Below are positions 11,909 to 54,989 of a stretch of 64,000 nt of DNA, piece after piece (the stretch's first letter is position 1; the number at the start of each line of letters is the position of its first letter). Origin of the DNA: Nereocystis luetkeana (taxonomy: Eukaryota > Sar > Phaeophyceae > Laminariales > Laminariaceae); the NCBI GenBank assembly GCA_031213475.1, contig JARUPZ010000026.1, forward strand, positions 3,304,823 to 3,368,822, read 5' to 3'. The notes beneath the pieces were generated by a model. It worked only from the letters and a program-made list of their open reading frames with translations. It made no database searches and was not told the origin of the DNA. The position numbers were made by a program, and so were the translations under genes.

Positions 11909-12230
11909 AATAATGAGTTTTCACGGGGGGGGGGGGGGGGGGGGGTAGCGTACAGAGATTTTCCCCTCCTCACAAATGTGGGTGCAACTATTTAATACCT
12001 GGTACTGTAGGTATCACACAGAGGTGGGAGCCCCTCTACAGTGCGGGTTGAGCAGCCCCGGCTATCCGCTATATAGTGCCTGTGAAACGTTCGGCCCTGA
12101 TAAAACTAACCAATGCGGCAAGCGTGCGAAGTTCTGCCGGTCGGCCTCTCACAGCGCCTCTATTGCTGGCTGGCGCATACCGGCACCAAAGAGAGGGAGG
12201 GACCAGCACCGTATTTTGACCACCTCTCAC

Positions 12231-12545
12231 CTCATTTCGAGGGCCCGGCGGAAAATCGAGGGCGACCCCTTCCTCGAGCCCGCCATTGCCACCACCATTC
12301 TCGCCGACGTATGCGTGACTCTCCAGGTCGTCGTCATCGCCGTCGCCATCGTGCGTCCCGATTCTCGCCCTTCGAGTGTGGTTGAGGGCACTCAAGCTCG
12401 AGGTCCTGCCCTCCGAAGACCCGCACCGCGACTCCGACCCCCTCCCGTCCGAAGAGCCCAGGTCGGCCGGCAACATTCTTCTGAGCACCTTCAGGAGCCC
12501 CCGGGGCTCCGTCTGGATGTGGTCCTTGGCCGGGAGTTGCTTCAT
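12231..12545 (-). CDS. 7TM-RGS exon 12: C-terminal tail
   Basis: 315 bp, phase 0, acceptor GGGAAAAAACAG at 12546, donor GTGAGA at 12230. It encodes MKQLPAKDHIQTEPRGLLKV, then a Ser/Gly/Asp-rich tail including SSDGRGSESRCGSSEGRTSS and DGDGDDDD, a likely cytoplasmic region with phosphorylation sites. If the donor is not used, the frame runs on to a stop near 12069. No later exon was found, so the true C-terminus is open. A 268-codon frame on the opposite strand is its shadow. Confidence 0.6.
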
Positions 12546-12821
12546 CTGTTTTTTCCCCGGTTCGTTGGGTTTGCGTCACAGGGCGGACGGCGTGGGTGTC
12601 ACTTGTATGCTTGCCGTTGCATCTGTGCCCTACACACGCCAGAACACTCCCCAAGTTTATCATCCATCCAACCTCAAAACGAGCTTGTGGGTCGTACAAA
12701 TCAGGAATCCATGTGCCCTCGAATATCCAGATCATGGAACTGTGGGGATCGGCGACCTGTCCGAGGGTCACCACTAAAATGACATCTCTGCTCCAGGGGC
12801 AACACCACAATAGAGTGTGTC

Positions 12822-13001
12822 GGGGGGGGGGGGTGTACTCGATAGGAGATATGTACTCGATCTCATGCTTGGCCGTAGTCGTATGACCACAGACCCTCGC
12901 ATCCCTACAATGCCGGGACGGAGCATGTCGGGTTTTCACCGACCAGGCAGACATTGCTTGCACCAAGCGCGAATCGCCGTGAGGTGTCTGGCGAGTCGCA
13001 G
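12822..13001 (-). mobile_element. SINE-C, 5' truncated
   Basis: Poly-G at 12822-12833 is its C tail. The body carries the reverse complements of CGAGTACATATCTCC, CATGC and GCGCTTGGTGCAAGCAATG. It lies between exons 11 and 12. Confidence 0.75.
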
Positions 13002-13440
13002 GGGGGGGGGGGGGGTACTTACTTGCTGCTTGCCTCAGTCATTTGCCCATTGACCATTGACCACGCATCCCTTTCCAGACGGAGCACCGATCCTACTCCG
13101 AATAGAGACACCTCCAACAATTGGGTGCTCATTGCGTTGTTTCCAAATATTACATATAGTAGAAACTTTTTGCTAATCTTATCCCCTTCCTGTTTGGCCG
13201 CCTGTGGCCACCATCTGTCTCCTAGGATAGCGATCGTTTTTTCGCTCCTATCTAGTGTGGCAAACTCCTCCATGTCACATTCGTCTATTTCCCTCAGCTC
13301 CTCTTCTAACACATCCCGTTCCTCCTTGTATATTTCACATTCTCCTATTATGTGAGTTCTACTATCTATCGCTTTGCCACACGGGCACATCTGTGCATCT
13401 ATTTCCTCCTCCTCCCGGCTACTGGTATACCTCTTTTTTC
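13002..13440 (-). mobile_element. LINE-A 3' end (CCHC-type C-terminus, poly-C tail)
   Basis: On the minus strand an open frame of about 140 codons ends at 13019. It carries MCPCGKAIDSRTHIIGECEI followed by Glu/Lys-rich helices, SEKTIAILGDRWWPQ and KISKKFLLYVIFGN. A C-x-C-x8-H-x4-C cluster after the reverse transcriptase, then a short helical tail, is usual at the C-terminus of many non-LTR retrotransposons. Just after the stop come AAGTAAGTAC and a C run (plus-strand poly-G 13001-13014). A diverged copy is at 40855-41299. Confidence 0.7.
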
Positions 13441-13446
13441 TTTCTG

Positions 13447-13580
13447 GGGGGGGGGGGGGGGGGGGTGTAATCGATACCATGCATGGCCGTAGTCGTACGA
13501 CCATAACAGACCCTCGCATGGATTCCCTGTAACGCCGGAACGGACCATGTCGGGTTTTCACGGATCAGGCGGACATCGGG
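13447..13580 (-). mobile_element. SINE-C, 5' truncated
   Basis: An 18-base poly-G run, then the complement of CCATGCATGGTATCGATTAC, ending within the GGTCGGTGAAAACCCGACAT segment, about 20 bp before exon 11. Confidence 0.7.
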
Positions 13581-13601
13581 GAAGCGGAAAGCCTCACACA
13601 C

Positions 13602-13746
13602 CTGTTTGAGCCTCTCCAGCTCTTCCGCCTCTTTTTCCACGTTCGCCTCCAGCTGGCGGTAGGCCGGTGTACTCTTGAAGGCGACGCTGAAATTGGTGTC
13701 CATCATAGCCACCGCCGCTGTCATCGCCTCGTTGAAGATGTTGTAA
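13602..13746 (-). CDS. 7TM-RGS exon 11: end of RGS domain and coiled segment
   Basis: 145 bp, acceptor TCTTACCCCAG, donor GTGTGT. YNIFNEAMTAAVAMM, then NFSVAFKSTPAYRQLE, matches the classic RGS end (F-x-E-A..M..D-x-F..F-x-x-S..Y..L). EANVEKEAEELERLKQ follows, a short helix with coiled-coil character. Phase 0 out. Confidence 0.75.
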
Positions 13747-13831
13747 CTGGGGTAAGAGACAGGTGGTTGGGGGGGTGGGGGGGGGGTTGGGGTTGGTGGT
13801 GATCGGGACGAAGGGGGGTGGGGGGGGGGGG

Positions 13832-13940
13832 GCAAGGGGCATACTCATTTGTTGCTTGCCTTAGTCATTTGACCATTGACCACGCATCCCTTTCGAGACG
13901 GGGCACCGTTCCTACTCCTGATAGAGACGCATCCAACAAA
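13832..13940 (-). mobile_element. LINE-A extreme 3' end
   Basis: The last ~100 bases of LINE-A: complement of CGTCTCGAAAGGGATGCGTG, TCAAATGACTAAGGCAAGC and AACAAATGAGTATGCC followed by a C run. The coding part is limited to the final codons. Confidence 0.7.
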
Positions 13941-13942
13941 TG

Positions 13943-14108
13943 GGGGGGGGGGGGGAGGGGGGGAGAGGGGGTACTCGATATCATGCATGGCCGTAGTCGT
14001 GTAGGCCATAGACCCCCGCATCCCTACAATGCCGAGACCGAGCAACATCGAGTTTTCAGCGACCAGGCAGACAATTGCTTGCACCAAGCGTGAAGCGCCG
14101 TGAGGTGG
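13943..14108 (-). mobile_element. SINE-C, 5' truncated
   Basis: A G-rich run followed by complements of GCATGATATCGAGTACCCCC and GCGCTTCACGCTTGGTGCAA. From 14110 to 14260 the plus strand is strongly G-rich. Confidence 0.7.
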
Positions 14109-14530
14109 TCAGAAGGGCGGGGGGGGGGGCGAACGAGGAGGCGGTGGGTATGGGGGGGGGGATAGAGTGGGAGGGGGAAGAGGGTGTAAAAAGAGAGAAC
14201 GGGGGGGCGGGGAAGAGACAAGGGGGGGGCGGGGGGGGGGGGGGGAGGGCAGGGGCAGGAGAGGAAGCAAGAAGCCAAAAAGACACAGAACAAGCGAGGA
14301 GGGCAGACGTCCCGAGTACGAACACAGCGAAGGAAAACAGACTATAAATAGAATACACAAAAATGCCAAAATATGACAACAAGAACAACATGACAAAACG
14401 AAAAGGTAACACGCCAACCCGCGTTACCAAGCAGAAAAATACACGCGACAGCACTCGCGGAACTGGTGCCACAGTGATTTACATTCTTGCTCGACCTTTG
14501 CACGAAGCGTAAGAACACCCTTGGCGTTAC

Positions 14531-14581
14531 TCTCTGAACTTGGAGCAGGCGACGCCGTGCCTCTCGTCGGAAATTGAGACT
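14531..14581 (-). CDS. 7TM-RGS exon 10: RGS domain, small exon
   Basis: 51 bp, acceptor TTTCGGGAG, donor GTAACG, phase 2 in and 2 out, matching exons 9 and 11. It encodes RVSISDERHGVACSKFR(D), filling the RGS stretch between the A-x-x-x-I and F-x-E-A helices at about the expected length. Another frame here (SLNFRREARRRLLQVQ) is also open but does not fit the phases. Confidence 0.5.
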
Positions 14582-14794
14582 CTCCCGAAACAAGACCTAC
14601 TTACGCGGTGTTACGTACTGTATGCAGACACACCGGCAAAAGGAAACGTTTGTGTGTGTGCGTTTTTTTTGTTTCTTGCCTCGAGATCTCCGTAGCCAGA
14701 ATTTTACTCCGGATGTCTCCACCAATGTTGACCTCCTGCTCCGCGCCCGGTCGAATGAACCTATCAAAACGTTGATATGGCGGCGTTAACATTC

Positions 14795-15280
14795 CGGGGG
14801 AGGGGCGGGGTACACTCAGTATTATGCAGGCGGTGGTCGTATGACCATAGACCCTCGCATCTCTGCAATGGGACGGAGCACGTCGGGTTTTCACCGACCA
14901 GGCAGACATTGCTTGCACCAAGCGCGAAGCGAAACGTGAGGTGTTGGGCCAGTCGCATGAAGGGTGAGCTGCATCCTACTAATAATAACCGCTTTAGAGG
15001 CGGTTTTCATGCAAATGGATGACAGCATCAATTAATTGAGTTGCTGTTTGGTGTGGCCAATTCCAGAGACAGCAATGGGTTCACTATGTAACTGCCTCAT
15101 AGGTGTCTCACCATATACCCGGTACACACTTCGTGATACGGTCATCCCCCTTGTGCGGAGCTAAGGTGCTTCTCGCACAAATATTGATCCAACTCGACCG
15201 CTAGCCGTGGTGACAGCCAAAGAAAAACAAAACCGGTACCCTGGTTGTCTGGCTCACGCAGTCAGTGTCGTGTTTTAAAA
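14795..15280 (-). mobile_element. SINE-C, near full length
   Basis: Begins at GGGGCGGGGTACACTCAG and runs through the whole family body to ACGGTACCCTGG-like sequence (ACCGGTACCCTGGTTGTCTG). The 5' terminal ~40 bp (ATAGGTTGGGTTGGCGTC) is missing. Confidence 0.75.
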
Positions 15281-15297
15281 CTCATTTCTACTAACAA

Positions 15298-15345
15298 TAT
15301 TCGGTCCTAATAACTATGGTCCCCCGTAATAGTAACAGCCGTTGT
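15298..15345. mobile_element. M2 MITE half
   Basis: One terminus only: TCGGTCCTAATAACTATGGT followed by CCCCCGTAATAG. Confidence 0.5.
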
Positions 15346-15516
15346 CAAACACATTAGCACAACCCTGAACACAACCACACGCACACAGCACTGCCAGTCT
15401 CATACACAGACTACAACAGTATACATAACACCACCAAAGAGAAATGACCTACAATAGCAAGTACCAGGTACAGTACGTAATAAGAAAATAAAAACATGCG
15501 GCTCCCCTTTCGGAAG

Positions 15517-16047
15517 GGGGGGGTGTACTCGATAGGAGAGATGTACTCGATCTCATGCATGGCCGTAGTCGTATGACCATAGACCCTCGCATCCCTACAA
15601 TGCCGGGACGGAGCATATCGGGTTTTCACCGACCAGGCAGACATTGCTTGCACCAAGCGCGAAGCGCCGTGAGGTGTCCGGCAAGTCGCATGAAGGGTGA
15701 GCTGCATCCTACTAAAACCCGCTTTTGAGGCGGACTTGCATATGGACGACAGCTTCAATGAGTTGATTTAATTTCCGGTGTAGGCATTTCCAGAGACGGC
15801 AATGGGAGTACTATGTAACCGCCTCTTGGGTGCCTTACCTTGAACACTACGTGATACGATCATTGCCAATTGTGCGGAGTAAAGGTTCTTTACCTCGCAC
15901 AAATGATCTAAACTCGACAACCAGCTGTGGGCGACCGCCAAAAAAAAAAAAAAAAAAAACGGTACCCTGGTTGTCTAGCTCACGTAGTGAGCGGCATGTT
16001 TTACAGTGTCGTTGCCAACCGACGCCAAGCCAACCTATAAAAAATAG
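15517..16047 (-). mobile_element. SINE-C, full length, C runs at both edges
   Basis: Complete copy of ~530 bp. Read on the minus strand it starts CTATTTTTTATAGGTTGGCT, passes CGGTCGCCCACAGCTGGTTG and AAGCTGTCGTCCATATGCAA, and ends ATCGAGTACACCCCCCC. A 19-base A run at 15942-15960 is internal. The sequence beyond its 5' edge is again poly-G on the plus strand, as at 41286. Confidence 0.8.
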
Positions 16048-16330
16048 GGGGGGGGGGGGGGGGGGGGGACTTAAGGACTTCGGACTAAACAATCGTACTC
16101 AGCGGCGGGCGCGACACTGAAAAAAATACCACTATGTCCCCAAAAATAGGCAACATTTATATACCTGGTATACTCTAATATTCAATAAAGCGATGCTTAT
16201 AATTAGCGACAGGGTGGGACCGGGTACACTATACGGTAAGGATGCGAGTCATCGCACTCCCGTAGACCGATGGCTTGAAGATCGATTGCTCAACAGCCAA
16301 GAGGGCTAGGAACACCGACCGACCGACTAT

Positions 16331-16530
16331 TTACGGGGTACCATAGTAAATAGGACCAAATATTGTTCGTAAAAATACCGAAATATATAGGTGTTTGTGT
16401 GTACCGTAGGTCCTATTTAACCCTTTTAGGACCCCAGTCCCGTTTTGGGGACAAAGTACTTATAATTGGAGTGCTTTGTCCCCACATACGGGACTGCAGT
16501 GCTAAAAGGGTTAATATGGTCCCCCGTAAC
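16331..16530. mobile_element. M2 MITE with an M1 MITE inserted in it
   Basis: The M2 ends are TTACGGGGTACCATAGTAAA (16331) and AATATGGTCCCCCGTAA (16513-16529). At 16419-16513 a complete M1 palindrome (AACCCTTTTAGGACCCCAGT .. GCTAAAAGGGTT) interrupts the M2 core right after GGTCCTATTT. M1 was therefore mobile after this M2 copy landed. Confidence 0.75.
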
Positions 16531-17036
16531 AAACGTCCAAGGAAGGCTCTCGAGGACGACCCTTCCCGAAACCGTCCGCTCCTGCATCAAGTCACCCACC
16601 CTCCCCGACTGCGGAGCTCCCGAGCTTTCAAAGTTTGGGGTATCGTAGGGGGGGGTTCGATGACTCGCATAGGTAAAGGCGATGCGATGGTATCACGTAG
16701 CTATGAGAGGGGGTGCAAACGCACCGGTGCGAGAAGCTAGGCAAACACGTCTACTACGCGCGTATGATCCACGGGGCTTACTACTAGAGGTACCGAGGAT
16801 GCCGGGAGACGTGTCAAGCAAGCTATGTCGTGCGCTTGCCAAGGGTGTACCAGGTAGGGCCGAGTGTTTCACGCTGAAAACTAGCTTGGTGTCAGTCGAG
16901 GTGCGTCAAAAGAGAAAGCTGCTGCCTTGTCAAAAGGGGTGAAGGTGCTGTCTCCTGACGTACTGACGGAAACGCCCAAGTAGATCGTTTATGCATGAAG
17001 ACAACATGTAGATAAAAGGGTTAAAGATAACTGGCC
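16531..17036. other. Intronic sequence, no exon recognised
   Basis: Overlapping plus-strand frames (16363-16942) are open for 60-125 codons but have no recognisable domain and lie inside a minus-strand intron. TACCAGGTAGG occurs at about 16848. Confidence 0.35.
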
Positions 17037-17137
17037 TCTTTAACCCTTTTAGGACCGCAGTCCCGTTCTGGGGACAAAATGCTTACCAGAATTTGACTGG
17101 TTTGTCCCCAAAACGAGACTGCGCTTCTAAAAGGGCC
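17037..17137. mobile_element. M1 foldback MITE
   Basis: Arms TTTAACCCTTTTAGGACCGC and GCGCTTCTAAAAGGG around CTTACCAGAATTTGACTGG. Confidence 0.75.
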
Positions 17138-17820
17138 AATAGCCTGTGCTCAAGCCTCTTCAAGCATGGCGACTAAAACAAATACACACCAGTAAGGCTT
17201 TTTCGCTCATAATACTAGTACGTGTCAAAAATAAAATAAAATGGCCCATGCCGCCACTGCGACACAACAATCAACGCGATCACACTAAAAACAAGCAGGA
17301 CTGCGTTGTCTAGACTAGTAACAGTAGATAAAGGGCAACACCCTTACGGACGGATGCGAATAATCACGACTCGTGATTATTTTGCAAACAGGCGTCATCG
17401 TGGAGGGGATAGGTTTTGGGAAAGTTGGGCGATGATAGCTCTACAGTCGAACGCACGACTGCCACACAGTCAAGCATTAGCCGGGAATTTTACATATATA
17501 TACGACGTTGAGAAAAACACACACACGCATACACGGTTCGTTTGCTACGAATCGTGACATCAAGTGCTCTCGACTTGAAGAAAAAAACACACACACGCAC
17601 TTTAGTCCGGCAGAGCACGATCTAGGTCACGACATATATCACGATTTACGTCTTTCTTGAGTAATTTTCCGATCTCACAGGCTTCCGTTAATTTATTTTT
17701 TTTCTCTTTTTTTTTGGTCATATTTTTCGTCTTCACGACTCGTGAGCTTTCTTGTTTTCCGCGTTATATATAGGAACTCCCTGTTATCTATCTCCAAAAA
17801 GAAGCAGTGGCACACCACAC

Positions 17821-17891
17821 CTGTCAATTATCGCCGACGTCGCCGCCTGCCGCCCGAAGAAATCGGTAATCTCGTCCCGATCGAGACACGC
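17821..17891 (-). CDS. 7TM-RGS exon 9: middle of RGS domain
   Basis: 71 bp, acceptor CGTGAACAG, donor GTGTGG. It encodes ACLDRDEITDFFGRQAATSA then IID, with phase 0 in and 2 out. It aligns with the RGS helix I-x-x-F-(I/F)-x-x-(Q/G)A. A GGGA-type tract, a M2 MITE and a SINE-T fragment lie in the flanking introns. Confidence 0.62.
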
Positions 17892-18157
17892 CTGTTCACG
17901 GCAGGTAACACCACACAACACACACACCATCCACGTCACCGCACGGCCGGAGCGGGCCACAGCAAAAGCGTCCAGCCATGTACCGGGCATTGAGGAGGGG
18001 AGGGGGGGGGAGGGAGGGAGGGAGGGAGCGGAACGGAGGGGGGAGGGATCGGGAAGGAAGAATGATTATTGCGCATCACAAAGTTGGCTTCATACCGCGA
18101 AGGGTTTTTCATATCACGAAATCGGCTTGAAACCTTCTTGGGCACTGTTAATACTGT

Positions 18158-18262
18158 TACGGGAGACCATAGTGAATAGGACCAAATAGTGTTCGTAAAA
18201 ATTGCGAAATAGATGGGTTTTTGTGTGTACCGTAGTTCCTATTTAATATGGTCCCCCGTAAT
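18158..18262. mobile_element. M2 MITE
   Basis: TGTTACGGGAGACCATAGTG at one end, TAATATGGTCCCCCGTAATA at the other, core with TTTTTGTGTGTACCGTAG. Confidence 0.75.
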
Positions 18263-18478
18263 ACAGTAGATACAGGCCTTGGCCTAGGTTTTGGGGGGAG
18301 AGGACACAGTAGTTGCCCCCCTGTATATAATGCCGGTTGCCCAGTAGAGAGTGCCGGTGAAATCGCTTGGCGCGGATTGGACTACCCAGCGTGGCAACGC
18401 GCGGAGTATATAGTACCGGTAGCCGTTATAGCGTCGGTACTGTTGCGGCAATACGTAGGACGAGTGAAGAGGGGCCAC

Positions 18479-18525
18479 TTCTGCATACCTGTTACGCATC
18501 TGGCACAACATCTCATAGCGGAAGG
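18479..18525 (-). CDS. 7TM-RGS exon 8 (candidate, borders unresolved)
   Basis: The RGS fold needs 10-15 more residues between exons 7 and 9, and this is the only good candidate. The open frame reads FRYEMLCQMRNRYAE. The strongest splice signals (GGTGCTAG at 18526 and CAG/GTATGC at 18489) give a 37-bp exon whose phase does not fit its neighbours. Weaker sites (TATGAG at 18512 and GAA/GTGGCC at 18479) give a 33-bp exon in phase 0/0 that does fit. Only a transcript can decide. Confidence 0.4.
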
Positions 18526-18694
18526 CTAGCACCCACAAACAGTAGATGTATCCGACGACGCGACATGTTGATGAAAAAAAAAACACACACACACACACAC
18601 TAAAACACTTGCCTACGTACGTATAATAACCCTGTTATATGGTACCGCACGTTCCTTTTCAATTCAATTCATTTCGTTTTATTTATTTATTATA

Positions 18695-18805
18695 TTCGCC
18701 CTCCTCGTCGTAACTCAGATCAACCATTGGGTCTTCCTCCCCTCCCCCCTCCCCGCCGCTGTGCGTGCCTTCACTTTTATCGTGAGGAACGTCACCCATT
18801 TCTCC
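18695..18805 (-). mobile_element. SINE-T fragment (tRNA-derived family, body only)
   Basis: On the minus strand it matches the SINE-T body at 48290-48410: CGATAAAAGTGAAGGCACGC, GGGGAGGGGGGAGGGGAGG and TGATCTGAGTTACGA. The tRNA-like head is absent. Confidence 0.5.
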
Positions 18806-18825
18806 CCTCGTTGACTCGCGTCTAT

Positions 18826-18931
18826 TACGGGGGGCCATAGTTAATAGGACCTATGGTATACATGAAAACCTATATATTTAACTATTTTTGCTAACGATAT
18901 TTGGTCCTATTAACTATGGTCCCCCGTAATA
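18826..18931. mobile_element. M2 MITE
   Basis: Well preserved: TATTACGGGGGGCCATAGTT and AACTATGGTCCCCCGTAATA, core containing TACATGAAAACCTATATATT. It lies ~120 bp downstream of exon 7. Confidence 0.8.
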
Positions 18932-19049
18932 ATTTCGGGCATAAACATACACCAGGTATCTGAGTCTGGTTCCGAGCGATCAGGGGGAGAGCGGGCCCGA
19001 ACGGGCTGGGCGCGGACAGGCAGGGCGGCCAAGACATCCGCCTAAATAC

Positions 19050-19154
19050 CTTGTAAAAATCGGGCAGCTCCCTCGCTACCCGCAGCTCCGCGAACTTCTC
19101 GAACTCTTGGCGCAGCTGCTCCAGCGACAGCTGGTCCCTGAACGAGGACCTCAT
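19050..19154 (-). CDS. 7TM-RGS exon 7: start of RGS domain
   Basis: 105 bp, acceptor CTATTAATAG, donor GTATTT (weaker than the others), phase 0 at both ends. LEQLRQEFEKFAELRVARE and LPDFYK line up with the first RGS helices. The pattern FxxF-x8-E-x3-F(Y/W) is the same as in animal RGS proteins, where Glu-Asn-x-x-Phe lies near the G-alpha contact. Here Asn is replaced by Leu. Confidence 0.72.
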
Positions 19155-19739
19155 CTATTAATAGCGTCAAGACGAGGCAAAGAAAAAAGGAGAGAGGTGA
19201 AAAACAAACTAAACAACGAAACAAGAACAACGTCATTTTAGCATTTTAACTTACGTAACACACAGACAAAGACGGTGATGGCTGCTGACGTTTTCAACTC
19301 GGCTATTTCAGAAGGGGAATCAACGAAAAACAAACAGCTCAAGCGACAAAACACAAAAAACACAAGGGCGAATGACAGCTGACGTTTCTGTTTATGTTGG
19401 AGGGGAGAAACGAAACATCACAGGAAAAAACACGTCAAAACACAAAAAAAAAAAAAACGAAAACAGAAAGACGACGGCTGATGATGTTCTGTTTCTTTTT
19501 TTTTTTCCTAACAAAAATAACCATAAACTAACTCGGCAAACAACACAGGCAGGCGTTTACACACACGAAAACGAGCGAACCAGATAGTGTACCAACCGCC
19601 GAGAAGAGGAAGAGCGAGAGGGACCATCCTTCCTCGTCGACAATACGTGGGGAGTTCGCGAATAATTTGGTAGGAACGAAGTCTGGTTGGGTTTATTGTG
19701 GTCTGTTTCCACTATAAAATTGAGCCCCGACCCATGGGG

Positions 19740-20047
19740 CCTTACCAAGAGCTAACCCAACCGAAGAACAATCAGACAAAAAGTGGACAACAGCACCCAC
19801 TGCTGTTAACCAAAATGATCCTTTCTTCGGTTGGATTATAGCCCATAGGAGCTAACCAAATCCAAGAACAATCAGACAAAAAGTGGACAACAGCACCCAA
19901 AGCTGTTAACCAAAATGATCCTTTCTTCGGTTGGATTATAGCTCATACCTGTGGTAGGAGCTAACCCAACCCAAGAACAATCAGAAAAAAAGTGGACTAA
20001 AACACCACTTTTACCCAAATTATCCCTTGGTGGGAATGTAGCTCATA
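19740..20047 (+). repeat. ~104-bp tandem repeat, three units, inside an intron
   Basis: GAGCTAACC(C/A)AA(C/T)C, AAGAACAATCAGACAAAAAG, TGGACAACAGCACCCA, CTGTTAACCAAAATGATCC and TTTCTTCGGTTGGATTATAG repeat at about 19744, 19848 and 19957. The third unit is diverged. CCGAAGAA near each start pairs with TTCTTCGG near its end, so each unit can form a stem. Confidence 0.8.
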
Positions 20048-20374
20048 GGAATGTTCCATTGATTGGTGTATTTTTTTTTTATAGGAAACAGACCGCAAGA
20101 ACCCCAACTAAAATTGGTCTCAACGAAAACCTCCGCAAACACTCCTTTCATGATCGCTCCCATGCGGGGAACAACATATAAACGTAGACCCGCCGCGATC
20201 TCCGTAGAACAATTGCAGTTACATGCGCGCGCGCACGCACGCACGCACGCACACAACACGGCGCGTGATAAATAATGTTCTGTCTTTTCGCTTCTCACGA
20301 AAAACAAAACAAAACAACTCGGTGCAACAATTGCTGCCACAGGCGCACGCACGCAAGACGCCCGGTAGCTATTC

Positions 20375-20480
20375 ACCCTTTTAGGACTGCAGTCTCGTTT
20401 TGGGGACAATTGGGGACAAATTACTTGGAATTTGACTGCCTTGTCCCCTAAACGGGACTGGAGTTCTAAAGGGGTTAACA
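20375..20480. mobile_element. M1 foldback MITE with a 10-bp internal duplication
   Basis: Arms CACCCTTTTAGGACTGCAGT and GGAGTTCTAAAGGGGTT. The left arm contains GGGGACAATTGGGGACAAAT, a local duplication. Confidence 0.7.
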
Positions 20481-20689
20481 ATAATGCGTAATATCTCCAA
20501 GTTCACGGCAGATGCCTGTTTTGCTCACAACCGACGGAATTAATTATTTATAGTCATGGTCTCTACCGACGGAAACGAATAGTTTATGTTGCCCAGAGGC
20601 AGAGAGAAGAGAAGAACGGCCACACCCGTCCCGTCCCCCCTCCTAGCTTCGGGGCGCGTTCCGGGGTAGGAGCAGGCGGCGGTGCCGTC

Positions 20690-22800: not shown

Positions 22801-22807
22801 CACTAAC

Positions 22808-22927
22808 CTGTGCCGGCGTTGGAAGTGTGGAAAACCCTTTGGTGTAGCTGTTGAGGTAGTCCTCGTCCCCGATCAAGTACCGGTAGATGGGGTTGGCCAC
22901 CGGAGGCCAGAACAGGACGAAAGACGC
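22808..22927 (-). CDS. 7TM-RGS exon 6: TM7 and juxtamembrane segment
   Basis: 120 bp, phase 0 at both ends, acceptor CGGGACAG, donor GTTAGT. ASFVLFWPPVANPIYRYLIG completes TM7 and carries NPIYRY, resembling the NPxxY motif of class A receptors. The polar stretch DEDYLNSYTKGFSTLPTPAQ links to the RGS domain. Confidence 0.78.
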
Positions 22928-24324: not shown

Positions 24325-24481
24325 GGTCGATCTTAACGAGGAGTGTTTTACAGTGTTTTATCAGTATTTTCCCGAAAATTCGGTATTTTCCTAGGGAACG
24401 AGGAGTGTTTTCCAGTTAGTTGTTGAAACACCGAAATTTAGGGAAAGTACTGCAAAAAAACAGTCCTCGTAAGATCGACCC
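24325..24481. mobile_element. Foldback element with GGTCGATCTTAACGAGGA ends
   Basis: GGGTCGATCTTAACGAGGAG at the left pairs with CAGTCCTCGTAAGATCGACC at the right. The interior repeats ACGAGGAGTGTTTT twice. It is single copy in the window, so I call it a MITE by structure only. Confidence 0.5.
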
Positions 24482-24507
24482 AAGTGTGTGTTTTTTTGTT
24501 ATTTTCT

Positions 24508-24695
24508 CTGTTCTACACCCCTCCCGTAGCTTGCGAATCTGCAATATATATGCGAAAATTTGCGCATTCTCTTGTGGGTTTTCTTTCTTGCTTTCTTGCT
24601 CGAAAATAACTTTTCTCTCTTTCCTTTTTGATTTTTGATTTTTTTCGATTTCGATTTCGGTTTTTCGACGTCGAGTTGCTTCTTTCATCCTGTCT
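24508..24695. repeat. Repeat R7, copy 2
   Basis: Matches 3290-3455 in the same orientation (see there). Lies in the intron between exons 6 and 5. Confidence 0.5.
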
Positions 24696-24854
24696 GCGTA
24701 TTTCTTCTGGGTAGTATGCGGTCTTCTCGTCTTCTTGGTTTCTGTGACGACTATAATAGTACAGCGTACCGCATGTACCTGATACGTATGTGCGCGGACC
24801 TCACTTTTAATTTTTGTCTGAGCTTCAGTTATCATGTTGTATTATATTCTTTGC

Positions 24855-24990
24855 TTCTATTTTTACCGGGGTATTCTTCAACTCCAGAGCTATTGAAGCC
24901 TGTCCTGCGACCACGGACGGCATCGCACTCTGCAGTGCTGTGACGATGAGTTAATATGAGAACAGCATCAACAACAACAACAACAACAAC
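24855..24990 (+). mobile_element. Short retroposon-like repeat with (CAA)n tail (R4)
   Basis: Core ACCGGGGTATTCTTCAACTC, CTGCGACCACGGAC, GATGAGTTAATATGAGAACA, then (CAACAA)n. Other copies are at 40370-40480 (plus), 34145-34275 (minus) and 59945-60060 (minus), always with the CAA/TTG run at the same end. That polarity suggests retroposition. Confidence 0.55.
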
Positions 24991-25202
24991 CTGGTATGTG
25001 CACCTACCAGGTTGTTTTTTTACGGTAGTTTTTCCATGAACCGTCCATCTTGAAAATAAGAACGAAAACAAACATGTGTATGTGATACTTCCTCTGCTGT
25101 GTGTGTGTTCTTCACATTACACCGTTATTTCTACCCGTCGACAGCTGTGCCATAGAAGTAAAGGGCCTCCATGACTAAGTAAGTAATTACACATACACAA
25201 CA

Positions 25203-25290
25203 CCCCTATAGTACTCCAGTCCCGTTTGGGGACAAACCACTCGGAGTTAGGCTAGATATGCCCCCAAAACGGGACTGCAGTACTATCCCA
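25203..25290. mobile_element. M1 foldback MITE, variant
   Basis: ATAGTACTCCAGTCCCGTTT and AAACGGGACTGCAGTACTAT arms, a variant with AGTACT outer ends. The single R5 fragment TTCTTCACATTACACCG lies upstream at 25108. Confidence 0.65.
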
Positions 25291-25615
25291 TGCGACTCGG
25301 ATTGTTTATTTTATTTTTTAATGAGTACCAGGTATCACATTTTTTGCTTTTCAACTGCTAATAACAACTGTTAATACTATTAGTACTACACTCACAGCAC
25401 CGTGGGCAACTCCATCGACGAGATGTGATCTGGCCCTCAAGTGGATAGTCTTTTTCACAGAGGAAGTACATTTATTTTGTGAAAGTCGAGCCAAAACGTA
25501 TTCAATCTTCAATCATCTCCCATTTTTTCTTCGAAGTGCCGCCGCGTGGTCACGTACGTACACGTATCCACGTACCGCCGAGCCACCCGGCCGTCTGTTT
25601 TCCCGCGGCACTCAC

Positions 25616-25732
25616 GATGACGTTGTGGTACAACACCCAGACCCTTCTGGTCTTGTGGTTGGAGTCGAGCCAGATCGCCTCCAGTGGGAAGACCACCGTC
25701 CCCGTCACGAGGACGAACACCAGTTGGAAAAC
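25616..25732 (-). CDS. 7TM-RGS exon 5: TM6 and start of TM7
   Basis: 117 bp, phase 0 at both ends, acceptor CATGTCAG, donor GTGAGT. VFQLVFVLVTGTVVFPLEAI is TM6. A short loop (LDSNHKTRR) follows, then the first turn of TM7 (VWVLYHNVI). Confidence 0.78.
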
Positions 25733-25835
25733 CTGACATGACATGAGAGAAGAGAGAAGAGAGAAGGGACAGCCGGCACCAGGATACATTATACCAGGTA
25801 TGCGAGAACGAGGGTTCTTTTCTTCGACCATACCT

Positions 25836-25985
25836 GGTATGTGTGTTCTTCACATTAAACCGTTCTTTCTACCCGTCGACATCCAGCACAACCAGTGTCC
25901 GTGCCGATTCTTCAATCCTAGAAGAGATAACAGTTCTGTGGCCACACAAAGCTGCGCACGCCACAGAGATATATACAGCAGTATA
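25836..25985 (+). repeat. Dispersed repeat R5
   Basis: GTGTTCTTCACATTAAACCG, TTTCTACCCGTCGACAT, CAGCACAACCAGTGTCCG, TCTTCAATCCTAGAAGAGAT, CACGCCACAGAGATA. Other copies: 25082-25150 (partial), 55917-56085, 60525-60675 and 60906-61060, all on the plus strand. Nature unknown. Confidence 0.6.
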
Positions 25986-26139
25986 TATACTCGTACCAGG
26001 TATGCATGTTTTTTTTTCGGAATAATTCTTCCGCTCCCACTCCCTCCCAGAGTGTTTTGTTACCCCGTTGCTTGGAAAGCCTGGCATTATTTCGTCTCCC
26101 CGAATTCGGGAAACAAATAATTACCACTATTATCACGCT

Positions 26140-26470
26140 GCTGCCGCGTGCTTGATGCACACGAGGTATGGCAACCAAGGGGAAAAAAGCCTCTTTATTT
26201 TCATAGCGGCTCGGATACGAGGGTAGGACACCTTTATTACTACTATTAATACTGCTGTATCAAATATTACTACATCACGACGGACTACTGCGGGGGGACA
26301 TATACGGCAGTAGTAGTACGAGTAATCAGAACCAAATATTGCGGGTAAACATCGAGGGAATAGATACCATGGTAGGCGGTATTCGGGCGCATCATCTGTC
26401 ATGGTGGGTTCTGAGTCACTACTCCAATAGTTGTAGTCAGTATGGCCCCTTGGAATAGATTGTGGCGGTG
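26140..26470. other. Intronic sequence with an M2-like relic
   Basis: AGTAATCAGAACCAAATATT (26318) and GGGTTCTGAGTCACTACTCC (26405) are diverged ends of the 2.4-3.1-kb unit. There is no coding signal. Confidence 0.4.
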
Positions 26471-26473
26471 AGT

Positions 26474-26830
26474 TGAACCCGTTGAGGACTGCAGTCCCGT
26501 TTTGGGGACAAAGTACTTGGAATTTGACTCGTGTGTCCCCAAAACGTTACTGCAGTCCTTTAAGTGCTGCAGTTCCGTTTGTTTGAGTGACAAACCACTC
26601 AGATTCCAAGAAGTGTGTTCACAAAACAAGCCGCTCAAATTTTAAGCAGCTTGTCCCCAAAACGGGACGGACTGCTGTCTAGTTGTAGTCCTAAAAGACA
26701 ACTCACTATTCATTCAACAGCTGACGTGCACTCTTGGTTTTGTATGAAAACAAACCACTCAAATTCTAGGGTTGAAGTTTGTCCCCCAAAAGGGACTGGC
26801 TGTGGTATAGTCCTATATAAATAGAAGGGT
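26474..26830. mobile_element. Cluster of broken M1 MITEs
   Basis: One fairly intact palindrome (26474-26562) is followed by partial arms at 26570-26690 and 26740-26820 (CAAACCACTCA.. TTGTCCCC..GGGAC..), as though M1 copies inserted into each other and decayed. Confidence 0.6.
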
Positions 26831-27153
26831 TACACACACCTCACGTATTTAATTAAAAAAACTTGACGTATTTGGGACAAACCCACTTGGAGCTACTCGT
26901 ACGAATTAATACGTACCGACGTACTGTTTATGGAACGCTTTTTTCGGCGGGAGAAGGGCTGACGTCAGAACATCAACACATCAACACAACAACCGCGGGC
27001 CCGAGGAAGCGGCAGCTCGTTCTGCTGTTTGTTGCAAGTGCAAGCGGAGCGAATGGATAAATTGATGAATTGACCCACGACGACCCGCGACCCACGACGC
27101 GTATTTTATACGTGGAAGAAGCGTGGGTGGTCGGTTGGTGAGATGTGAACGTA

Positions 27154-27250
27154 CTTGAGGGCTGCAGTCCCGTTTGTGGAACAAATCGCTCAAATTATAA
27201 GGTATTAATAGTAATTTGTCCTGAAAACGCGACTGCTGCACTGAAAGGGA
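27154..27250. mobile_element. M1 foldback MITE, diverged
   Basis: TTGAGGGCTGCAGTCCCGTT and AACGCGACTGCTGCACTGAA arms with several mismatches. Confidence 0.65.
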
Positions 27251-27439
27251 TATGCTCTGCATATATTTAGCAACCTCCTCGAGGACTACAACAGTGAAAA
27301 CAACAGCATTTTTTACAACTATAAAAAACAACAACGTCAACAGATCTAGACTGATAGAGACGCTAAAAAACAACGGCCAGAACAATCGAGTCTGTGCGCC
27401 TTTCTCAACCGTCTACAAAGTTTATGCTTCACATATTAT

Positions 27440-27745
27440 TCAGAAAAAAAAACTGACAAACAACACCTCCTGTGAGATCGAGGATCTCGTCGAAACCCAT
27501 CTATCTTTGAAAGCTGGGTACGATACTTCGATCGCGCGTACTACGTCCGTACGGGTTTTACACGGCCTCATCCAGGAAACACAGTCCGTACATAAGGAAG
27601 ACAGGAAGACGAACCTATGAAGCTGCAGAATCCGAAGGAGCGGGTCTAACACGCAGGATAAACGCACACCCTCGTAACCGCGAACTTCCAGGTTGACATT
27701 TTCGATGACGGAGGGAGTGCAAAAACGCAGAGCGATGCCGTTAAC
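27440..27745 (-). other. Unexplained open frame in the exon 4-5 intron
   Basis: About 100 minus-strand codons are open (IVNGIALRFCTPSVIENVN.. DPLLRILQLHRFVFLSS.. VVRAIEVSYPAFKDRW). Composition is protein-like and it is not one of the repeats I recognise. No splice-site pair in phase 0/0 that would insert it into the receptor's third intracellular loop is obvious. It could be a decayed gene fragment or a cassette exon. Confidence 0.25.
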
Positions 27746-27749
27746 AATA

Positions 27750-27803
27750 CGGTAGGTTTTTGTATGTACCATAGGTCCTATTAACTATGGTCCTACGTAA
27801 TAG
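27750..27803. mobile_element. M2 MITE half
   Basis: Right half only: TTTGTATGTACCATAGGTCC, TAACTATGGTCCTACGTAAT. Confidence 0.55.
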
Positions 27804-27835
27804 TCGTACCCTCGAATGCTGTTTTTAATAAGAGA

Positions 27836-28115
27836 TGATGCTGGAGTTCGAATCTCACCTCGGTCGAACTTTTGAGTTTGTTCGCAGAAACAAACGAAAA
27901 AAAAACGGACTCATCTGCTGAGAGCGCCTACTAATAGTAGCGTGGGTGGGCGCAACTCGATGCTAGTCGACGAGGGAAGAAAGGGCCGAAGAGCCTTCTC
28001 GCGATAAAAATGCCTTCCAAGGCAAAAACCGTTGGGGGGAGGACGAAGAACAGCCTGCATTGTGGCCCAAGATCTGAGTTACAACTACTGTATATAGGAA
28101 GGAGAGAGAAAAACA
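27836..28115 (+). mobile_element. SINE-T (tRNA-derived), 5' truncated
   Basis: Starts inside the tRNA-like head, with a B box GAGTTCGAATCTC at 27846, then the family body: CTGAGAGCGCC, GTGGGTGGGCGCAACTCGAT, GTCGACGAGGGAAGAAAGGG, CTTCTCGCGATAAAAAT, GATCTGAGTTACAA, GGAAGGAGAGAGAAAAA. Matches 48190-48440. Confidence 0.7.
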
Positions 28116-28246
28116 GAGCTGAGACACTATTAATAGATGGGACGGGGGGGGAAAAAACAACAGTGATAGTCCCGTCCAACGAACACACATACTAGTAGTG
28201 ACCCTCCCCCCCGTCACTCCCCATTCCGTATATAGGGAGTCCTCAC

Positions 28247-28436
28247 CTGCAGGCGGTACTCGTTCATCTGCTTTCGGACCTTGCGCATCTGGTAGACAAA
28301 AAAGAAGGCGCACACCACCGGAACGCAGCCGTACACGTAGAGCGCCGTGTCGACCGGCGCGTAAACCTCGCACCAGTTTCGGCGCTCGTTGAAGAGGGAA
28401 AGACCCTCGTCGATCGAGTAAACGAACACGGGTGTG
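28247..28436 (-). CDS. 7TM-RGS exon 4: extracellular loop 2 and TM5
   Basis: 190 bp, acceptor CCAAAAG, donor GTGAGG. One base completes a Leu codon, then 63 codons follow. The end of TM4 (TPVFVYSI) leads into a loop with Cys (NERRNWCEVYAP), then TM5 (ALYVYGCVPVVCAFFFVYQM) and a basic loop RKVRKQMNEYRLQ. Phase 0 out. The loop Cys is the expected partner of the Cys in exon 3. Confidence 0.8.
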
Positions 28437-28564
28437 CTTTTGGTATTTGCCAAACACGGTGAGAGCGCAGAATAAGAAAAAAGGGTTCATGGTAGGGAGA
28501 TGACGGTGGAGGGAGAGGACGGGGGGAGGGGGAGGGGGAAGGGAGCGGGGGTGGGGGGGAAGGA

Positions 28565-29112
28565 GGGGAGGGGTGGGGGGTGTACTCGATAGGAGATATG
28601 TACTCGCTCTCATGCATAGCCGTAGCCGTGTGACCAGACACCCTCTCGCATCCCTACAATGCCGGGATGGAGCATGTCGGGTTTTCACCGACCAGGCAGA
28701 CATTGCTTGCACCAAGCGCGAAGCATCGTGAGGTATCTGGCGAGTCGCTGAAGGGTGAGCTGCATCCTACTAAGAACCCCTTTGGAGGAGGACTTGCAAA
28801 TGGATCACAGCTTCAATGAATTGATTTAATTTCCGGTGTAGGCATTTCCAGAGACAGCAATGGGAGTACTAAGTAACTTCCTCTTGAGTGCCTTACCATG
28901 AACACTACAGTACGTGATACGATCATTCCCACTTGTACGGAGTAAAATATGTTCACCTCGCACAAACGATCTAACACGACAACCAGCTGTGACCGACCGC
29001 CGAAAAAAGAAGAAAAAAAACGGTACCCTGGTTGTCTAGCTCACGCAGTGAGCGGCATGTTTTACAGGGTCGTTGCCAACCGACGCCAACCCAACCTATG
29101 TATAATAGGGAG
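28565..29112 (-). mobile_element. SINE-C, full length
   Basis: From the C tail (plus-strand GGGGTGGGGGGTGTACTCG) to the 5' end, CTATTATACATAGGTTGGGT on the minus strand. It fills most of the intron between exons 4 and 3. Confidence 0.8.
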
Positions 29113-29309
29113 GATAAGGAGAGAGGAGGGAACGGAGAAGTACCAGGTAAGGAGGATGTTGATTAGGAGAATGACAATCCTCCTGATGGAAAAATAATGG
29201 GAAGGATGAAAAAAAAGGATAAACGAGAACGAAACTTGCAACGACAATTAGAACGATAGAGTTGTAGGAAAGGTATTTCTAGCGATGCTTCACGCTTTGT
29301 TGCACTCAC

Positions 29310-29469
29310 AGCCATGGGATCGTCAGCAGCGCCACCTGCCCCGATGATGGCCACATGTCGACCGAGTGCTTCACCAGCATCTTCCAGCTCCGGTAGACGC
29401 GCACGAGGGCCACCGATATCCACACGCCCCACGCAGTATAGTCGAACAAGCTCACAAACCCGCAGTGAG
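29310..29469 (-). CDS. 7TM-RGS exon 3: TM3 and TM4
   Basis: 160 bp, acceptor GCGCCCAG, donor GTGAGT. It begins HCGFVSLFDYTAWG, placing a Cys at the usual start of TM3, and continues to LVRVYRSWKMLVKH, the basic end of TM3 where class A receptors carry D/ERY. WPSSGQVALLTIPW starts TM4. Phases are 1 in, 2 out. Confidence 0.75.
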
Positions 29470-29539
29470 CTGGGCGCGGACGCATCAGGAGAATATGGGG
29501 GGGCGAGCAGGGAGCCAGATGACGGATACGCAGGGAGGC

Positions 29540-29600
29540 GGGCAGGCAGACAGGCAGACACGCAGGCAGGCATGCAGACACGCAACAGAACAAGCGGAAG
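29540..29600 (+). repeat. Short GCAGGCAGACAGGCAGACA microsatellite
   Basis: Imperfect (CAGG)/(CAGA) run in the intron just upstream of exon 3. It is followed by AGCAGCAGCAACAAT-type triplets to 29650. Confidence 0.7.
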
Positions 29601-29706
29601 CAGCAGCAACAATAACAGCAGCCGCGACAGCAGCAGAAGCAGCACCAGGAGCGGCAACCGTCCTACAATACGTACGAGTATAGCACGCGCAACGAAATAT
29701 ACTCAC

Positions 29707-29795
29707 CTACGAGGTCTCCATCATGACGGTTCACCGCCCCCGATGCGATCAGCGTACCGAGAAAAGCCACGACTCCCGCTAGTCCCGTTAGACAC
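29707..29795 (-). CDS. 7TM-RGS exon 2: TM2
   Basis: This 89-bp exon is too short to show as a long frame. The acceptor is ATGTTACAG and the donor is GTGAGT. One base completes the Val codon left by exon 1. The next 29 codons form a clean hydrophobic helix beginning CLTGLAGVVAFLGTLIASG and ending in the polar loop NRHDGDLV. It leaves one base for exon 3. Phase agreement at both ends is strong support. Confidence 0.75.
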
Positions 29796-29939
29796 CTGTA
29801 ACATGTTGTTGGGTATCGTTAAATATACCTGGTACCTTGTACATAGTAGTATAGCAGTAGAATTAAGCGTATCCTTTTGGAACTACAGCATTGAACTCGT
29901 TTTATAGATAGCATGTCAAGTCTAAAGTAGATGTACCGC

Positions 29940-30830
29940 TGTTAGCATATACCCGGATACTCGCGAGTATTGTCCGCCCCGCCCAAACTCGCCACGGGTA
30001 CCTGTAGTACTCAATCCTCGCGGGGTTTTTGTACACGAGTACACCCGGTATCCGCTGTTGTTTCACCCCGGAGGAACTTATCACGCCGTAAATTCCTTCC
30101 TCTGGGCAGTATTTTTCGTGCACTGTCATTTCACATCACAGAGGTACTCGCGCGTATCCGGGCTCCCGGTGTTTTACCATGGAACCCCGGGGATATCAAC
30201 CTATCACCCCGTAATCACGTCTCCCGTCTCCTGGGCAGTATTTCCAGCTGAGTATTTCCAATAAAATATCCGGGGGAAACCCATTTCAAAACGGCTCCTC
30301 CAAAACTTTGTGCAGGACGTGTGTCGTCAGTTTCATTCAACCCTGCACGTGGACCCAGACTAACCCAACCCCAGGCCCGAGCCTACCCCTAACCCCAGCC
30401 CTTTGGGGTTTGGGGGGCTTGAGGTCGGCAGGGGCAGGCACGTGGCTTCCCCGCGTGCTTTGGTTTTTCCAAAAAAACGCCGGGCGGCCGAGAGACCCGG
30501 CTTATTTAACCTATAAGACCCGCATCCTGCACAAAGCATCCTGCACAAAGAAATTTGTGCAGGGCGTTCTTTCAAACCTATACTTTTTCACATACCTCAC
30601 ATCTCCCGCGGATCGAGTCTTTCAAAACTATACTTTTTCACACACCTCACATCTCCCGCGGGTCCACGGGTACCGGCTGACAGACGGGTACATACCCTGG
30701 ACTACTACCCGGGTACGCACCCCAATCGCCGAAAATACTCGCGAATACCCGAGTCGCCCCCCCGCGCGCAAGTAGTGGCGAGTACTCGACGGAGACGACT
30801 GCAGGACAGGGTACACCGGGTACACCAACA
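29940..30830. other. Intron 1 sequence with short direct repeats
   Basis: Two ~48-bp direct copies of TCAAAACTATACTTTTTCAC..CACATCTCCCGCGG lie at 30572-30612 and 30620-30662. CATCCTGCACAAAG is doubled at 30530-30551. CTGGGCAGTATTT occurs at 30098 and 30230. No exon found. Confidence 0.5.
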
Positions 30831-32490
30831 ATGTTCTTCTACGAGTGTCACAAATCTCGTATATATTTTGTACCTGGTTACTGCAGTAGGTACGAGAGGC
30901 TATGTACCAGTACAGCAGTAGCAGTAGTCTACTATCAACACTGCCCCCACTGCTGTTGGCGTATATACTCGTACCAGGTACTCGTGCTGCTGCTGTGTAC
31001 CTGTCCACGCTTATCACGGAACTGATTACCGTCTCGAGTGCAAGTGGATGGGCACAAAAGTAAGAGAGTATCTCTGCGTCGGTTCCCTTCATGCTACTCG
31101 TACTTGTACTGCTGTGTTGGATTTGAAACAAGTTTTAGGGGATAAACTACCAGTAACATCGTAGAGCAGCACACGACAAACTGCAACAGCCAACGGCAGT
31201 ACCCCCTACGAGTGGTACTTGAAATTACTGCTTGTGGACTTGTGGATTTGTGGACTTATTTTTGGAGTGGACCAATGCGTTGGGATGGACATTTACCATC
31301 AAGAATTATCAAACAGATAAACTCCTGTTCGGTTGGTGTCGTTGGTGATGTGGTGCACGACGTACAGAAAATACCAGGTCCAAGTTTCAATGTTCAACGA
31401 GCAAACGCCGGTGTTCAATGCGCGAGGCGACGGACACACTCACACAAAGCGCAGGCACAGGAAGCAGAAGAAAACAAAGCACTCGACGAGTGCTCGGTAC
31501 TCGGTGGCTGGTATTATATTGGTAGTACGTCGTACGCAGCAGCGGTAGCAGCAGGAGGAGTCAACCGAAGTACGATAAACAAAAAAATCGGAAAAATAAT
31601 TTCGAAGTAGTTTGACGGCGCAGGCACAGCCAGGGCACACGCCACAAAGCAGTACACAGCCACTTGATTTTAGAGGCACTACCAGCGAGCAGCACCAGCG
31701 CACCAGCGCACAAATGCCCCCGACTCGTGTACAAGAAACTCGAAAAAAAACTGCGGAAAAGTGTAGATGCTGGTTATTTATGCAGGCAACGACGCGGGAT
31801 TTTGCAGGATGTGAGAACGACACTGCTGGCTGAGATTTGTACGGCCGATCGAGCAGTAGATTCGCAACGAACACACACACCGATAGTCTACATGTATGCC
31901 GCAGACACATACTTAGGGTAGCGCGACCGGTGGGGCGATGCGATGAACGGAGCTGTGCTCCACATACGCTGTGTGCTGTGCCAGCTTTTCGGGCGAGACG
32001 GCGGTTTGTCGTAGAAAAGCAGAGGCTGGATGCATCAATCAATTCGAGCAAATAAATAGGAACTACTACTGACTGCTGTGTAGGAGGAACATCTCCTGTA
32101 TAGTATGATCGTATCATACCAATAAATACAGAAGGAGCGAAACACGAGCACCGAGTATAAAACTCGACCTCCAACGACCAGGCTGTCACCATCGGCTTCT
32201 TGTACCAGGTCCGCCTGAGATATGCTCGTTGGAGAGGGGCGACCCCAGACGGGCAAGCCAGCTATTAACAGAGGCCAGAGGCATGGACGGCCCTGCTCTG
32301 CAAAACCGCGATAGGGGAATAGTGCTGTACAATAACTACCAGGGTATCGTACAACGTCATTCCCACATCGTGAAACATGCCCGAATTGCGATACCTTGGG
32401 AATACGATGAAAAACAACACACCAGCGAGCGGCATTTTACGCGAAAAAATATGAAAATCAAACAACGCACCAAGCCTTTTTATTTTTCAC
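30831..32490. other. Intron 1 sequence, no exon recognised
   Basis: Long minus-strand frames (for example 31440-32192) show no hydrophobic helix or domain in phase with exons 1 and 2. Many TACCAGGTA / ACGAGTA / CAGCAGTA words occur between 30870 and 31000. Confidence 0.35.
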
Positions 32491-32494
32491 TCAC

Positions 32495-32709
32495 ACGAGA
32501 GAGATCTGGCGAACGCAGTAGGGCGGCCACGAACGGCACTTCCAGAGGTGCCCCACCGCGAGCAGCACGAGGATCTGGTAGAACGACGTGACCCCGAGGT
32601 GGGCGTAGTCGGGGCCCTGGAGCGAGGTCCACAGGTCATCGTCGTCGGCGAAGTCCTCGCTGCTGTCAAACCTCAATCCTCGATGCCACACCAGTTCGTC
32701 TTTCCACAT
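32495..32709 (-). CDS. 7TM-RGS exon 1: N-terminus and TM1
   Basis: I place the start at the ATG at 32709 (context CTCACCATG). The frame is open further upstream to a possible splice site, so an earlier exon is not excluded. The exon encodes 71 residues plus two bases: an acidic N-terminus (SSEDF then four Asp), then a hydrophobic helix (QILVLLAVGHLW) and a basic loop KCRSWPPYCVRQ typical of intracellular loop 1. The donor is GTGAGT at 32494-32489, phase 2. There is no signal peptide, which is common for receptors with short N-termini. Confidence 0.7.
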
Positions 32710-54970: not shown

Positions 54971-54989
54971 GGTGTAACGAATAATCCGG

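Follow-up and report, generated by a model that had tools for sequence, protein, structure and literature searches.

Does a brown alga carry a gene in which a membrane receptor is fused to a brake on G protein signalling, and how might such a protein work? The question is raised by a 64,000-nucleotide stretch of Nereocystis luetkeana DNA (NCBI GenBank assembly GCA_031213475.1, contig JARUPZ010000026.1, positions 3,304,823 to 3,368,822, forward strand; hereafter the window), whose minus strand holds, from 32709 to 12231, a candidate gene for a seven-transmembrane (7TM) protein with a regulator of G protein signalling (RGS) domain. RGS domains accelerate GTP hydrolysis by G-alpha, and 7TM-RGS proteins govern self-switching-on G proteins in plants and some protists. 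We find that the locus probably forms one gene for a 7TM protein that also has a Ser-rich tail and an RGS domain on the cytosolic side; by analogy with AtRGS1 of plants, the protein would be a membrane-held GTPase-accelerating protein (GAP) relieved by a signal. Published systems are cited below from excerpts of the papers named.

Gene model

With splice sites placed by eye and by script, eleven small exons across about 20 kb give a joined sequence of 1608 nt, or 536 stop-free codons, with matching phases at each of the ten junctions. This independently built model agrees with the original prediction, made from the DNA letters alone, in the number of exons and in their span (12231-32709). Nine out of ten introns are of the GT-AG type and one, after exon 9, is GC-AG (AG/GCAAGA). 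Their lengths range from 237 to 3653 nt (n=10), the longest lying between exons 6 and 7 and the second longest measuring 3060 nt. The gene starts at an ATG in CACCATG context with an in-frame stop upstream, and there are two options for its 3' end, namely a donor GTGAGA at exon 11 or a read-through of 53 further codons to a stop at 12069-12071. Junction phases had been predicted to agree everywhere except near exon 8; the agreement elsewhere stands, and the trouble at exon 8 is due to a further exon of 81 nt (14760-14680), after which the GC-AG intron begins. The joined model has the 7TM-RGS architecture, a single protein in which the RGS domain comes after seven TM segments.

The RGS domain and exon 9

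A search between exons 8 and 10 that allowed GT donors only and used an RGS-like pattern found no exon. Exon 9 was found by listing all open frames in this 4-kb stretch; it reads FIRPGAEQEVNIGGDIRSKIL and supplies the missing RGS helix. With exon 9 in place, Pfam RGS (PF00615, curated gathering cut-off 23.9 bits) matches the whole protein at 30.4 bits (E 5.7e-7, profile positions 2-117 of 117) and the RGS part alone at 34.7 bits (E 2.7e-8). A Pfam RGS search of the joined exons was the check that the original prediction had proposed, and the significant match that it yields is present only with exon 9. Splicing exon 8 straight to exon 10 would also keep the phase, but it takes a helix out of the RGS domain and leaves Pfam with no RGS match, and was therefore rejected; the best Pfam line is then Tospov_NS-S_N (20-20.7 bits, under its cut-off of 25), and the RGS part so joined has no RGS match in the Protein Data Bank (PDB). 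A second GC offers another end for exon 9, which makes the loop longer and was not adopted. A GC-AG intron next to a short exon can conceal an RGS domain, to which Pfam is blind here when exon 9 is missing.

Because exon 9 had been picked for looking RGS-like, we ran a decoy test in which it was replaced by nine random pieces from 179 candidates in the exon 8-10 stretch, none overlapping exon 9. Eight of these gave no RGS line and the ninth, at 15.5 bits, stayed under the cut-off; the true exon 9 scores 34.7 bits. Exons 7, 8 and 10 alone therefore hold merely a faint RGS signal.

The RGS signatures read earlier in the letters, FEKF..E..F and FNEA...Y..L, are both found in the minus-strand model. 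All nine PDB sequences that match the RGS part at E<=1 are RGS16, RGS9, RGS18 or RGS5, and a search of NCBIfam gave no match at E<=1. In the alignment with RGS16, Glu326 falls on the second Glu of the SEEN motif, and the G-alpha-contacting Glu of the E-N pair is thus present. The corresponding residue of AtRGS1, Glu320, is required for GAP activity (PMC12017998).

Chance controls and coding bias

A home-made intron-aware scan over 7.5 kb was run with a small RGS profile built from RGS16, RGS9, the RGS gene on C7 described below and a provisional AtRGS1 sequence, six residues of which agree with the published numbering (PMC12017998); no window sequence entered the profile. The gene region scored 35.5 bits, against a maximum of 19.7 in fourteen other window segments (two minus-strand segments overlapping the region were excluded) and of 21.4 in 200 dinucleotide shuffles, none of which reached 35.5. 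Masking exon 7, 8 or 9 lowered the score to 28.5, 32.1 and 24.0 bits, respectively.

In the joined exons, G+C at codon positions 1, 2 and 3 is 0.59, 0.42 and 0.80, and the third position is the richest in ten out of eleven exons, the exception being exon 2. Eight out of eleven exons exceed the 95th percentile of a null made of stop-free intron pieces nearest in length to the exon tested. Across the window, low-complexity stretches excluded, nine stretches show a bias of at least 0.45, and all nine overlap exons of this gene (six on its strand, three on the opposite one). The agreement among the exons had been called hard to get by chance, and the RGS E-value of 5.7e-7, the failure of all nine decoys to reach the cut-off, the 35.5 bits against at most 21.4 in shuffles and the third-position G+C of ten exons all point the same way. 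The locus is very likely a real gene.

The 7TM part

Seven Kyte-Doolittle hydropathy peaks of 19 residues above 1.2 lie in the 536-aa protein, Cys104 stands at the start of TM3 and Cys177 in loop 2, and TM7 carries NPIYRY, all as had been predicted. The inside loops hold 2, 3 and 5 K+R residues and the outside loops 1, 2 and 3, while the N-terminus is acidic (D+E 10 vs K+R 3). A topology with the N-terminus outside and the RGS domain in the cytosol therefore fits these charges and appears the likely one.

DRY, NPxxY and CWxP are motifs of class A G protein-coupled receptors (GPCRs). The class-A-like character that the original prediction saw in the 7TM part had to be given up, since there is no Pfam 7tm_1 (PF00001) match at E<=10, TM3 ends in VRVY rather than DRY, TM7 has NPIYR rather than NPxxY and TM6 is without CWxP. 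Seven Pfam families are listed for the 7TM part, the best being 7tm_3 (PF00003, class C) at 19.4 bits (E 9e-4), below its cut-off of 33.5 bits; the remaining six (E 0.02-1.9) are not receptor families. One reversed and nine block-shuffled controls listed no receptor family (best line E 0.022), and the provisional AtRGS1 sequence gave no 7tm_3 line in Pfam.

G-alpha genes and further receptor loci in the genome

In the genome (465,085,209 bases in 1987 contigs were searched) there are at least four loci for G-alpha in which the catalytic Gln is present. Twenty-one stretches match G-alpha at E<=1, five of them above cut-off; sixteen form four loci (C12, C28, C8 and C22), the other five being weak singles (E 0.006-0.7). 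DVGGQ is found in all four loci, and the Gly of switch I is kept in all three in which that stretch is visible (RVRTSG in C28, RIRSSG in C12 and RVITSG in C8). A change of this Gly renders G-alpha insensitive to RGS (PMC9283941).

In a six-frame search for RGS domains, the sole stretch passing E 0.001 lies on C7 (9.8e-9 in the Pfam search). This search goes exon by exon and gives a lower bound, the window's own RGS domain, split over four exons, being undetected by it. Upstream of the C7 RGS gene on the same strand are exons resembling TM1-2, TM3-4 and TM5-6, and downstream is a piece like a Ser-rich tail (C7:12.680-12.710 Mb; L001, L023-L025). Because TM-like exons precede the RGS stretch on the same strand, two or more 7TM-RGS genes are probably present in the genome; the C7 model is incomplete, the exons for loop 2, for TM7 and for the linker not being settled. 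Its resemblance to the window gene is confined to TM1-2 (z 3.4, matched by 4 of 500 shuffles), with z -0.3 for TM3-4 and 0.3 for TM5-6. A search for relatives in viral contigs gave five pattern matches, none of them confirmed.

We further note two loci about 250 kb apart on C19 (8.795-8.797 and 9.047 Mb; L013, L014, L016) with common class C-like 7TM exons; their 7tm_3 matches (E 4.2e-5 and 6.5e-4) are both under the cut-off, and they are perhaps a class C receptor gene pair.

The gene, together with candidate G-alpha partners now named by locus, offers a test of whether complex algae signal the plant way, by release of a brake, or the animal way, by an accelerator.

Proposed role and rival explanations

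We favour a membrane-held GAP set by a signal, because of the analogy with plant, Naegleria and fungal 7TM-RGS proteins. The G-alpha loci and the C7 RGS gene with its TM-like exons also speak in favour. The N-terminus would lie outside and the RGS domain beneath the membrane, where it would accelerate GTP hydrolysis by G-alpha. Like the partner of AtRGS1 and some of those of the Naegleria 7TM-RGS proteins, the G-alpha probably loads GTP readily unaided, and the 7TM-RGS protein would keep it off. An outside signal may then lift the brake, through a change in the 7TM part or through removal from the membrane after phosphorylation of the tail. Membrane location, GAP activity, ligand and G-alpha self-activation are all carried over in this proposal from the known relatives.

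Several observations weigh against it. Masking exon 10 barely changes the home-made scan (35.1 vs 35.5 bits), and exon 10 therefore contributes little in this small profile; the Pfam RGS alignment runs through exon 10 to the end of the profile. Exon 2 is without coding bias, exon 9 falls under the 95th percentile of the null and exon 8 is borderline. Beside the catalytic Glu, Leu327 replaces the Asn that RGS16 has in the E-N pair; the provisional AtRGS1 sequence has Thr at this position, and the Asn is therefore not universal among active RGS domains. The 7TM part has no PDB match at E<=10 and is not significantly similar to the 7TM part of the provisional AtRGS1 sequence (z 1.7 overall; 0.4 for TM1-2, 2.6 for TM3-4 and 1.4 for TM5-6). 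Finally, the joining of exons 1-11 in a single transcript, and with it the fusion of the 7TM and RGS halves, is inferred from the gene model.

That last point also favours two adjacent genes, a 7TM receptor (exons 1-6) and a soluble RGS gene starting from the ATG at 19154 (exons 7-11). Exon 7 opens exactly at this ATG, right behind the acceptor AG and after an in-frame TAG, which makes it a possible separate start; the Pfam RGS match begins four residues on, and no other intron of the ten is as long as the one separating exons 6 and 7. Against this, exon 6 has a strong phase-0 donor, with its frame open for 167 codons further, exon 7 has an in-frame phase-0 acceptor, and the second longest intron measures 3060 nt. 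The C7 stretch was moreover the only RGS stretch to pass E 0.001 in the six-frame search (a lower bound). Given this and the lack of an evident 3' end behind the 7TM half, such an adjacency would be a rare coincidence, and we consider two genes quite improbable. A decayed or chance assembly of exon-like pieces without a working gene is far less credible still: the introns are long and repeat-bearing, exons 2, 8 and 9 have little or no coding bias and one donor is GC, but 536 stop-free codons, ten in-phase junctions, a third-position G+C of 0.80, an RGS match above the gathering score and 0/200 shuffles speak strongly against it.

The original prediction proposed a different mechanism, in which the protein responds to a ligand and also turns its own G-alpha off, that is, a bifunctional receptor whose 7TM part is a ligand-driven guanine nucleotide exchange factor (GEF) and whose fused RGS domain shortens the pulse. 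Ligand sensing together with such switching off is possible; in the plant relative the signal instead relieves the GAP. The seven TM segments with their Cys pair and the weak 7tm_3 match, absent from all ten controls, are in its favour, as are reports that full function of GprK in A. fumigatus depends on both halves and that MoRgs7 has a 7TM half that binds G-alpha (PMC10794492). The 7TM part, however, lacks the class A activation motifs, in the class VI proteins of A. oryzae the RGS domain was enough by itself to restore the phenotype (PMC10794492), and plant G-alphas charge themselves with no GEF (PMC3386157), which leaves the bifunctional receptor unlikely in our view. The sequence would also allow a class-C-like 7TM part to have been joined to an RGS domain in this lineage apart from the plant and fungal 7TM-RGS proteins, again giving a signal-gated brake on self-activating G-alphas. 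We regard such a separate fusion as doubtful; if true, it would be a candidate for brown-algal pheromone or sugar sensors. Ectocarpus gametes express six G-alphas and some putative GPCRs, and the ectocarpene receptor is merely suggested to be a GPCR (PMC3879662).

Coordinates and other features of the window

The exons and the other features of the window are collected in Table 1. Four copies of a 29-base repeat lie in introns of the 7TM-RGS gene and one about 0.4 kb beyond its last exon, and the repeat looks like part of an interspersed element. When a repeat of the window was sought in viral and in prokaryote contigs, neither set held a copy (0 and 0). Inverted-repeat motifs, one near CTGCAGTCCCGTTTTGGGGACAAA and another near ATGGTCCCCCGTAATA, occur in introns and flanks and resemble small DNA transposons by eye.

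Table 1. Positions of the exons of the 7TM-RGS gene and of other features in the window.
Feature	Position	Strand	Content
Exon 1	32495..32709	-	start ATG, N-terminal ectodomain, TM1; aa 1-71; hydropathy peak 38-56; donor GTGAGT
Exon 2	29707..29795	-	TM2; aa 72-101; phase 2 in, phase 1 out
Exon 3	29310..29469	-	Cys104, TM3, intracellular loop 2, start of TM4; aa 102-154
Exon 4	28247..28436	-	end of TM4, loop 2 with Cys177, TM5, intracellular loop 3; aa 155-218
Exon 5	25616..25732	-	TM6, start of TM7; aa 219-257
Exon 6	22808..22927	-	rest of TM7 with NPIYRY, start of linker; aa 258-297; donor GTTAGT, phase 0
Exon 7	19050..19154	-	RGS N-terminal helices, Glu326 at the catalytic-interface Glu position; aa 298-332
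Exon 8	17821..17891	-	RGS middle helices; aa 333-355
Exon 9	14680..14760	-	RGS stretch FIRPGAEQEVNIGGDIRSKIL, then GC-AG intron; aa 356-382; brings back the Pfam RGS match
Exon 10	13602..13746	-	RGS C-terminal helices, FNEA...Y..L; aa 383-431
Exon 11	12231..12545	-	Ser-rich acidic C-terminal tail; aa 432-536
Inverted-repeat motifs	16420-16510, 17041-17135, 20375-20480, 25205-25290, 26480-26680, 33525-33610, elsewhere		by eye
29-base repeat	11791, 12940, 14895, 15630, 28689	+	with the two below, 7 copies with <=3 mismatches; chance expectation 0
29-base repeat	616, 41675	-	
Reverse transcriptase frame	36374-37780	+	468-aa open frame; Pfam RVT_1, 9e-10
Short piece	46250-46375	-	resembles the reverse transcriptase frame by eye
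Three tRNA genes	54650-58023	-	two tRNA-Arg(ACG), one tRNA-Val(CAC)

Comparison with known 7TM-RGS proteins

Analogues had been named in plants, fungi and some protists, and these proved the right set for comparison. A literature search covering titles and abstract starts among the matches listed gave no 7TM-RGS report for brown algae or other stramenopiles; subscription papers lie mostly outside it, and its outcome is hence no proof. De Mendoza et al. 2014 and Bradford et al. 2013 are said to survey RGS proteins across protists and may already include algal 7TM-RGS genes. A published comparison does include 7TM-RGS proteins of non-plant eukaryotes (PMC12017998).

With AtRGS1 and other plant 7TM-RGS proteins the window protein shares the 7TM part, cytosolic linker, RGS domain and Ser-bearing tail, along with the catalytic-interface Glu. 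The provisional AtRGS1 sequence also has one Cys where TM3 begins and another in loop 2, and its RGS part is related to the window RGS (28% over 102 aa, z 13.7). Compared with this AtRGS1 sequence, the window protein has TM1 preceded by about 37 aa, its linker is shorter and its acidic tail longer, and the similarity of the 7TM parts is not significant, as given above. In plants, the 7TM-RGS protein keeps off a G-alpha that charges itself without a GEF (PMC3386157), and sugar and tail phosphorylation lift the brake through endocytosis (PMC3386157, PMC3718340).

The fungal class VI GPCRs (GprK, GprR and MoRgs7), likened here by description only, also combine an N-terminal 7TM part with a C-terminal RGS domain; GAP activity has been shown for the A. 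oryzae members, those whose phenotype the RGS half alone restored, and both halves are needed for full function in two fungi other than A. oryzae (PMC10794492). The 28-member 7TM RGS family of Naegleria fowleri, likewise compared by description only, offers the protist counterpart of a 7TM part with a C-terminal RGS domain. Some of its members carry outside EGF-like, lectin or GPS parts, whereas the window ectodomain is short and acidic, and the Naegleria proteins act on several G-alphas, fast and slow, some of them self-activating (PMC9283941). The class C-like GPCRs of diatoms have their best resemblance to 7tm_3, the sole receptor family listed also for the window 7TM part, there below cut-off. 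Unlike the window protein, these receptors have no RGS domain mentioned in the excerpted survey of four diatoms, which reports one complete RGS domain (PMC3727952).

The 7TM-RGS combination is thus an established architecture, and because it is already known from plants, fungi and protists, the Nereocystis gene is a further member of it and not a new kind of signalling protein.

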